From: Bacteroidales bacterium
GTDB lineage: Bacteria; Bacteroidota; Bacteroidia; Bacteroidales; WCHB1-69
Assembly (NCBI GenBank): GCA_016290295.1
Contig: JAEETJ010000005.1
Coordinates: forward strand, 62,001-126,000
Direction of reading: 5' to 3'
Length of the DNA: 64,000 nt
Below, in pieces: positions 40,271 to 43,200 of the stretch. Within the stretch, counting starts at the first letter, position 1; the number at the start of each line of letters is the position of its first letter. The notes beneath the pieces were generated by a model. That model ran no database searches. It was not told the origin of the DNA and saw only the letters and a list, made by a program, of their open reading frames with translations. A program made the position numbers and the translations under genes.

Positions 40271-43200
40271 ATGAAAACCTTCTTCCTCAACATATACCGA
40301 TATCTCAGGCAGCATCCCGTGGTGTTGTGGGGGGCGCTTGCGCTGCTCACCCTGCTGTGTGTACTCAGTGCTCTGAGAATCAACTTTGTGGAGGATATCA
40401 GCAGTTTTCTGCCCAATAACCAAGAGAACGAACGCATCAATTATGCTTACGAACATATTGGTGCCGCCAACAAAATCATGGTCTATGTCAGCCAGACTGG
40501 CCAAAATGAGGAAGAGGAAACAAATGCTGAAGAGACTGACAGCGAAAACATTGATTATGAATTGATTTGCAGTGCCGCTGACCGTTTTGCAGAGGTATTT
40601 CAAGATACCTCTGTAGAGACGTGCTACGGAGCGTCTCTACTATACCAGGTGGATCAGGAAAGAATCGATGAAATCACGGCCTTTGTTGTCGAAAACATGC
40701 CTTATTTTCTCACCGAGGAAGACTATAAGCGCATGGATACCCTGCTGACCGCTGAGCATATCAGCGAACAGTTAGCCAACAACAAACTTTTGCTGTCGTC
40801 TCCAGTGGCAACCTTACGGACCATTATACAGAAAGACCCCTTGTTTTTCTCAGCTAATATCTTACAATCGCTCAACAACTTCCGTCCCGACAATGGCTAT
40901 CACGTGGAAGACGGCTACATTTTCAACAAAGAAGGGAACGAAGCGATTATCGTCATCACCTCCCCCTATCCTGTCAGTGAAACAAAAGACAATGCCAAGC
41001 TCATCCAGAAAATCAAGAGTACTGCCCACGAGGTAGAGGAAGAGTTCAAGCATCAGGTACATGTTCGCAGTTTCGGTGCCGCGGAAGTATCGATTACCAA
41101 TGCCCAGCAAATCAAAAAAGACAGCTTCTTGGCCATCAGTTTATCACTATTGCTGATTGTGGCCATCCTGATATACTATTATCGCAATGCCCGCAGCATC
41201 TTGCTGATATTATTGTCCACTTTTGCTGGCGGACTGTTTGCGCTCGGCCTCATCGCCCTCATCAAGAATCCCGTATCGCTCATCGCCATTGGCGTGGCCT
41301 CCATTATCATTGGCATCGCCATCAACTACCCGATACATTTCCTTTCCCACTTCAAGAGGACTGATGACAAAGAACAGATTATCAAAGACATAGCAACACC
41401 CTTACTCACTGGAAACATCACCACGGTGGGTGCTTTCATCAGTTTGATGTTCATCAGTTCCACAGCCATGAAAGACTTAGGCTTGTTCGCTGCCCTCCTG
41501 CTGATAGGCACCATTCTTTTTGTGCTGATTTTCCTGCCACATCTGTTAGGAAAGCACTATCCCGGCAAAGACCGCCAATTAGCCTTCAAGTCCGCGGCCG
41601 AATTCAGACCGGAACGTCATATCCTGATTATGATAGCTGTTGTGGTGCTGACCATACTCTTCTATCATTTCAGCGGTCGCACCTCTTTCGACACCAACAT
41701 GCACCATATCAACTACATGACGGAGGAACAGAAAGAGGCCTTCCAGCAACTGTTAGCGGAAAGTGATACCAACATAAGCACGGTATATTGCATTGCGGAA
41801 GGCAACACGCTGGACGAGGCATTAGAATACAATGAGAAAATTTTTGCAAAGACGCACGGCTGGGCGTCTTTACAACAGGTTAACGGTGTCGGTAATTTCA
41901 TGCCATCCACTGCGACTCAACAAAAACGCCTTGAACGTTGGCATCAATTCTGGAAAGACAAAAAAGAGACCTTCTTCCAGAATTTAGACAAAGCCGCTGC
42001 GGAAAACGGCTTTTCACCTGCCGCCTTCCAACCTTGCAAAGACATTCTTGAGCAGGATTACGAAGTTCAAGATAATCAACATTTTAGCATCCTTAAAGAA
42101 GAATTAGCAGCCAATTATATTTCTGAAGAAGAGGGACATTGTTTAGTGTATAATTTGCTGAAAGTGGATAAAGATGATGCCGATAAAATTGAAATGATGT
42201 TCAACGATTTAGATGAGCACATTTTTTCCTTTACCGACAGCTCCATTGCTTCACGCTTAGTGGATGCTCTTTCCCAAGACTTTGATTATGTGCTCTTTAT
42301 CTGCGGATTTATTGTTTTTGTTTTCCTGCTGATATCTTTCGGAAGATTAGAAATCAGCCTGATGGCCTTTATGCCTTTGATTATTGCCTGGATATGGATT
42401 TTAGGCATTATGGGCATTACGGGCATCCGCTTCAACATTGTCAACATCATCCTGGCTACCTTTATCTTCGGTATGGGCGACGACTATTCCATTTTCGTCA
42501 CCGAAGGCTTATGCTACGAATACCGCTTCGGACGTCAGATGCTTTCGCAGTTCAAGAACTCCATCATCCTGTCGTCTTCCATCATGTTTATTGGCATTGG
42601 CATGCTGATTTTCGCCAAGCATCCCGCCATGAAATCCTTAGCCGAGGTCACGGTGGTGGGCATGTTCTCGGTGGTCTTAATGGCGTACATCATCCCGCCC
42701 TTCATCTTCAAGTGGCTGACCCATAAGAAAGGCAAGCTACGCAAGCAACCAGTTACCCTCATCGACTTCCTACGCACATTCGGGGTATTGATTGTATATG
42801 TCACTGGTTCCATTTTCTTAAGCATTTCCGCTTTCTTCATGTTGACCATAGGAGGCAAGACCAAAAAGCACAAAGAGCATTACCACAAGCTCTTACAGAA
42901 TACCATGCGCTATGTTGCCTGGTGGATGCCGCAGGTTAGTTATCGGGTGGACAATCCCCATGGCGAGGACTTTTCCAAACCTGCAGTCATCGTTTGCAAC
43001 CACCAGTCGCATTTCGACCTGATATACACACTGATGCTCTCCCCGAAAATCATTGCCATCACCAACGAATGGGCCTGGAATTTCCCGTTGTACCGTGGCA
43101 TCTTACGGGGTGCCGACTTCCTTCCCGTCACCAATGGCATCGAGCAGAACATCTCCAGACTGAAAGAACTGACAGACCAGGGCTATTCGATACTGATATT

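Follow-up and report, generated by a model that had tools for sequence, protein, structure and literature searches.

GTAG-type REP palindromes read in frame in an MMPL-acyltransferase gene and other genes of rumen Bacteroidales, with changing subtypes at fixed sites

Results

Two abutting palindromes in a transporter gene

The window, that is, the whole 64-kb stretch of DNA analyzed here, comes from a rumen bacterium of the order Bacteroidales, whose draft genome (G000; 3.19 Mb in 94 contigs) is 97.7% complete. A gene in this window encodes an MMPL-family transporter (PF03176) fused to an acyltransferase (PF01553), and two palindromes abut within its coding sequence (Table 1). As a first-pass annotation of the letters had indicated, the arms of both palindromes were 100% complementary at the positions claimed for them, and both palindromes were contained in frame in the open reading frame (ORF), with the translation EVFQDTSVETCYGASLLY. 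Base 40613 was common to the two.

Table 1. Positions of palindromes and related features in the window
Feature	Position	Strand	Sequence	Remarks
Host gene	40271..43852	+		Fusion of an MMPL-family transporter and an acyltransferase, 1193 aa
First palindrome	40590..40613	.	CAGAGGTAT-TTCAAG-ATACCTCTG	Arms 40590-40598 and 40605-40613, 6-nt loop; decayed REP or chance
Second palindrome, 28-bp double-foot REP	40613..40640	.	GTAGAGACG-TGCTACGGAG-CGTCTCTAC	Arms 40613-40621 and 40632-40640, 10-nt loop; encodes VETCYGASLL (MMPL protein residues 115-124)
Second decayed REP in the host gene	41846..41873	.	GCAAAGACGCACGGCTGGGCGTCTTTAC	Peptide KTHGWASLQ; 3 outer mismatches; 23/28 to the CACGGCCGTG subtype
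REP	33499..33526	.	GTAGAGACATTGCATGAGACTTCTCTAC	In frame in beta-ketoacyl synthase gene 33313-35091; 2 outer mismatches; peptide VETLHETSLH, residues 63-72, within the ketoacyl-synt domain
Possible decayed REP	39519..39546	.		In glycosyltransferase gene 39357-40145; peptide VEMNDLTSLQ; 3 outer mismatches; 21/28 to the CACGGCCGTG subtype
Terminator-like hairpin	21807..21834		AAAAAGAGACGCGTTTGCGTCTCTTTTT	Core AGAGACGC/GCGTCTCT common with the REP family
Other repeat	26188..26215		TTTTCAACTGAAAACTGAAAGTTGAAAA	Like the AACTGAAAACTGAAAGTTG-type repeats that other congeners have instead of a REP at their NRPS and L002 sites

The window contained nine inverted repeats (arms of at least 9, loop of at most 10), compared with 2.56 ± 1.71 in 100 dinucleotide shuffles, and none of the 100 shuffles produced an abutting pair. 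Folded as single-stranded DNA, the 71-nt segment was predicted to form exactly these two hairpins (z = -4.15). A search of Rfam returned zero matches. In an AlphaFold2 model of modest confidence (mean pLDDT 64.6; below 50 at residues 115-118), residues 115-121, encoded by the second palindrome, lay in a predicted loop between a helix (96-114) and a strand (122-124), consistent with the loop location proposed earlier.

The second palindrome belongs to a dispersed family

The first-pass annotation had also likened the second palindrome to a type of dispersed palindrome and had suggested a genome scan for further copies. We found 20 exact copies of GTAGAGACG-N(0-30)-CGTCTCTAC in the genome of origin and none of a reversed-pattern control. 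Allowing up to three mismatches, the family pattern GTAGAGACG-N10-CGTCTCTAC occurred 72 times, against three for the control, in a census based on pattern searches and fetched stretches. The significance of the second palindrome comes from its genome-wide copies. The family was present in 36 of the 60 genomes searched, all of them draft assemblies and mostly metagenome-assembled, with up to 52 exact copies per genome.

An alignment of 46 copies revealed outer arms that were almost fixed, whereas the five inner positions of either arm varied and yet still paired (91% of cells). Both sides had changed in 46 cells, compared with 18.5 after shuffling, and the covariation score was 0.235, compared with 0.117, a value that 0 of 500 shuffles reached; the signal was lost once partners were slid. 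The copies tended to be preceded by T and followed by A, and no clear target motif was evident around them beyond this preference. In the literature, the arms GTAGAGACG and CGTCTCTAC turned up in primers and unrelated text only.

A 28-bp GTAG...CTAC palindrome with many dispersed copies and complementary stem subfamilies has the features of GTAG-tagged REPs, which are dispersed palindromes of 20-40 bp that form such subfamilies, sometimes lie in frame in genes and can occur as dimers (Di Nocera et al. 2013, PMC3733652). The other end carries CTAC, the reverse complement of GTAG, and the element fits the "double-foot" REPs assigned to RAYT group 4, or TnpA-REP subclass 2.4 (Quentin et al. 2018, PMC6006769). 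In the window the REP stands alone and does not form the pair of inverted REPs that makes a REPIN.

Neither the window nor the rest of its genome contained another copy of the first palindrome, which leaves it a singleton by sequence and rules it out as a separate dispersed family. Read in the register 40589-40616, it shared 19 of 28 positions with GTAGAGACGTTTCATGAAACGTCTCTAC, a REP of the TTTCATGAAA subtype, which made it the third-best place in the 64-kb window after two clear REPs, and the same place scored 16-19/28 in all seven congeneric orthologues. Its first codons (Ala-Glu) were conserved in outgroups without REPs, and its TTTCAAGAA segment (Phe-Gln-Glu) is self-complementary on its own. 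The first palindrome may be a decayed TTTCATGAAA-subtype REP or a product of chance; if the former, it could be the decayed partner of the window REP in a former doublet.

Several other repeats were also observed. The beta-ketoacyl synthase protein also contained IRIHNSQFTIHNS, which resembles another in-frame repeat type. A PD-(D/E)XK-like ORF (2-1201 of L114) contained multiple NCQLSTVNCQLST / MHNAQCTMHNA repeats in frame, which belong to another class of simple repeat that invades coding sequence. Upstream of a TPR gene in G003 and G004 (L155 and L165), another palindrome, GTAAGCGACTGYGTCCTCGCAGTCGC, stood in place of the REP and apparently represents a second palindrome family, of which DCVPQSDNVSDCVPQS in L197 may be a coding form.

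The MMPL site in congeners and outgroups

All seven congeneric MMPL orthologues carried REP-like sequence at this site. A single unit was found in G000, G006 and G004 and two units in the others; the doublets added 16 residues relative to the single-unit form in G003 and G002 and 31 in G001 and G007, or about 17-32 aa relative to the outgroups. The spacers of the doublets (VETCDDASQNSDQN, AESFQEISLSSNHN and VETFHETSLHSEHN) look related, and the REPs at this site had decayed in G004 and G003. About 28 outgroup homologues lacked the REP and were approximately one residue shorter than the single-unit form. The clean insertion of about 17 aa that had been predicted for the window's gene is therefore absent: REP-less homologues align through the single-copy form with a gap of approximately one residue, which comes close to refuting the claim, and 16-31 extra residues occur only in the four doublets. 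Because the single-copy form exceeds the outgroups by no more than about 1 aa, insertion at this site is read from the congeners rather than seen directly. We obtained neither a target-site duplication nor an exact empty site at the DNA level.

The window's REP looks like a collapsed doublet or a replaced loop rather than a clean insertion. The simplest history would be a doublet in the ancestor of the genus, followed by collapse in some lineages; under such a history, the near-equal lengths of the single-unit form and the outgroups would reflect coincidence or loss of host codons. The second decayed REP in the gene reads VETHAHAALQ or AETHDRASIR in congeners, and in the orthologue alignment the genus was a few residues shorter than the outgroups at this loop, which again points to residues having been replaced or trimmed rather than simply added. 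In the G006 orthologue (L067), 146 bp were missing across this second decayed REP (window 41815-41962) and the frame was shifted; the gap is either a true lesion or an assembly error.

In-frame copies in other genes

We examined about 58 distinct copies in fetched stretches, of which at least 15 lay in credible genes, namely the MMPL gene and nine others. The latter copies were found in ogt, aroA and the genes for an NAD-dependent epimerase, a GH2 beta-galactosidase, an NRPS module, a PMT-like membrane transferase and a methyltransferase with a THUMP-like domain, and in those for a U32 peptidase (three copies), an SpvB-domain protein and a secreted protein (two copies each). The window added one further in-frame copy, that in the ketoacyl synthase domain (33499-33526). 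We left the copies at L103, L106 and L007 out of the intragenic count, the ORFs looking spurious or the REP preceding the likely start. Two of the three REP frames on each strand are open and the third contains TAG; no REP inside a credible host gene used the TAG-containing frame. With open frames and a net insert length that is a multiple of three, a REP adds a short peptide, most commonly VETxxxxSLQ, and the REPs of aroA and the methyltransferase gene were read in another frame.

Clear extra residues relative to homologues marked the REP sites of three proteins in sequence alignments. AroA was longer by about 10 aa than PDB 5xwb and by about 14 than its orthologue in the congener G005, whose aroA lacks a REP. 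Ogt was longer by about 29 aa than 4bhc, and the U32 peptidase by about 12 and 10 aa than its counterparts in G008 and G005.

Subtype change at fixed orthologous sites

Comparison of orthologues revealed that a REP is kept at the same nucleotide between species while its inner arms switch to other known subtypes. In aroA, each of five congeners had exactly one REP, without an array, and the inner sequences were CAATTAATCG, CGATTAATCG, CACGGCCGTG, AGGCATGCCC and a decayed CACGGGTGTG, representing at least three subtypes. We observed TGCCACGGTA versus CGATTAATCG in ogt, CACGGCCGTG versus CGATTAATCG versus TGCCAAGGTG at the third U32 copy, and TGCTACGG(A/T)G versus TTTCATGAAA at the MMPL site. 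Across 43 orthologue pairs, which share species and sites, are not independent and are therefore given without a P value, the inner arms differed at a mean of 4.4 of 10 positions, compared with 1.0 expected from flank divergence, and the outer arms were only 1.35/18 off consensus. Many pairs differed at 6-9 of the 10 inner positions between flanks that were approximately 80%-95% identical. In addition to the four MMPL doublets, arrays or doublets were present at the epimerase site (G006 and G002) and the methyltransferase site (G003, G006 and G002). This pattern of fixed sites and changing subtypes is new here.

RAYT-like genes as candidate movers

The transposases of RAYT group 4 are HUH-Y1 enzymes of the IS200/IS605-like type, and the TnpA-REP of E. 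coli is established in vitro to cut at GTAG and to move or copy REPs. In relatives, the RAYT-like ORF of L188 had REPs of one subtype, GTGCATGCAC, upstream, inside and downstream; those of L181 and L192 had a same-subtype REP before and inside the ORF; that of L187 had one inside with near copies around it; and those of L183, L184, L190 and L194 had a single internal REP each. The internal REP lay in frame between the HuH and Y motifs in L181, L183, L184, L187, L188, L190 and L194. The encoded proteins matched NF047646 (REP-associated tyrosine transposase) in two parts separated by the internal REP (E values of 5e-14 to 9e-17, below the curated cut-off of 80 bits) and matched E. coli TnpA-REP faintly. 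By eye, L184 had the motifs NHLH, WQ and YIENNP, against the group-4 pattern NHxH, WQ and YIxNNP.

In the window's own draft genome, 97.7% complete, the search for a group-4-like RAYT gave 0 matches; other genomes are reported to have lost their RAYT and kept the REPs (PMC6006769). The genome did hold five short IS200-type Y1 genes that fell below the RAYT cut-off, and within about 2.4 kb of them the only REP was one about 1.1 kb away in a neighboring gene. With no other REPs beside them and scores under the cut-off, these genes are weak candidates for movers. RAYT-like ORFs in L186, L189 and L191 (G006 and G045) had a variant internal palindrome, GTAGAGACAACGCATGCGTTGTCTCTAC, whose identity across genomes of different genera suggests recent transfer.

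Discussion

We consider it very probable that the second palindrome is a double-foot REP of the kind associated with group-4 RAYTs, that such REPs have landed in genes, and that doublet collapse and subtype exchange followed. A RAYT would cut at GTAG and move or copy REPs folded as single-stranded hairpins, which would have landed repeatedly in the coding sequences of this genus of rumen Bacteroidales, presumably without benefit to the host, and the short REP peptide would survive in loops. In the MMPL gene, the genus ancestor would have had two REPs in the loop that links the first porter helix to the strand after it, and the window's lineage would have kept one REP, probably via recombination between near-identical arms. 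Occupied sites would then persist as the REP is exchanged for other subtypes; we favor REP-into-REP insertion or short recombination as the means of exchange.

Perfect 9-bp inverted repeats are expected two to three times per 64 kb and the first palindrome has no second copy, so chance has to be weighed; we give it next to no credence overall, and the 20 exact genome copies against none in the control refute it for the second palindrome. A functional element under selection at this site, either a protein-binding site or an RNA hairpin that acts as an attenuator or stabilizes the MMPL mRNA, for example, would account for the strength of the predicted hairpins and for palindromicity being maintained as the sequence changes. 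In many genomes, however, this palindrome is dispersed among intergenic sites and genes unrelated to one another; there is no Rfam match, two congeners have decayed copies at the MMPL site, and we regard a selected element as very improbable.

How the inner arms came to differ allows more room for disagreement. Fast point mutation, in which compensatory changes or templated (quasi-palindrome) correction preserve the pairing, would fit the small central steps at the intergenic site L010 (CACGGTTGTG, CACGGCCGTG and CACAGCCGTG), and the perfect 9-bp arms of both the first palindrome in G000 and the differing palindrome in G004 are what templated correction would leave. We nonetheless find this route unlikely: many inner arms differ at most positions between well-conserved flanks, and the alternative arms are discrete, dispersed subtypes (CGATTAATCG, CACGGCCGTG and TTTCATGAAA). 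A stronger competitor supposes ancestral arrays of mixed subtypes, of which species kept different members through birth and death by recombination. The arrays and doublets at the MMPL, epimerase and methyltransferase sites speak for it, but the five aroA orthologues, with five inner sequences and no array, do not, and on balance we hold it possible but rather doubtful. Exchange of REPs at occupied sites is the reading that we carry forward.

The elements described here share GTAG/CTAC ends, and REPs flanking and inside RAYT ORFs, with the subclass 2.4 REPs of RAYT group 4 (PMC6006769); they differ in that they decorate many ordinary genes and change subtype at fixed sites, and their own genome is without a detected RAYT of this kind. 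The GTAG REPs of the earlier survey have a tag that is unpaired at one end and did not come from Bacteroidetes, whereas both ends pair here (PMC3733652). The doublets at the MMPL site of four congeners and at other sites recall REPINs and BIMEs, from which the single window copy differs. The initial comparison with palindromic elements of Rickettsia was apt insofar as both are palindromes translated in frame in ORFs, in surface or flexible regions. The Rickettsia RPEs and the CGTC-tagged REPs are, however, longer or CGTC-tagged; the likeness in in-frame setting is an analogy, and the window element is better placed among the RAYT-associated double-foot REPs. For the RPEs and CGTC-tagged REPs, we know of no report of a dedicated transposase.

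The earlier reports that we consulted place such insertions chiefly within the RAYT gene or outside this phylum; the present data reveal that, in Bacteroidales, RAYT-type REPs have heavily colonized ordinary genes in frame. REP-occupied sites in essential or conserved genes might even be permanent docking sites at which subtypes are swapped in frame repeatedly between sister species, an idea that we entertain seriously while leaning slightly against it. If it is true, docking would operate by REP-into-REP homing or very short-tract conversion, and core enzymes such as AroA would bear, in their loops, a selfish peptide cassette that can be exchanged. The data also caution against reading conserved function into VETxxxxSLQ-like stretches of proteins predicted in this group, which are mobile DNA. 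Bacteria appear able to accommodate and swap such elements within functional proteins, and the pattern of subtypes at fixed sites would constitute a natural record of REP movement, in which transposition and conversion could be told apart by comparison of strains.
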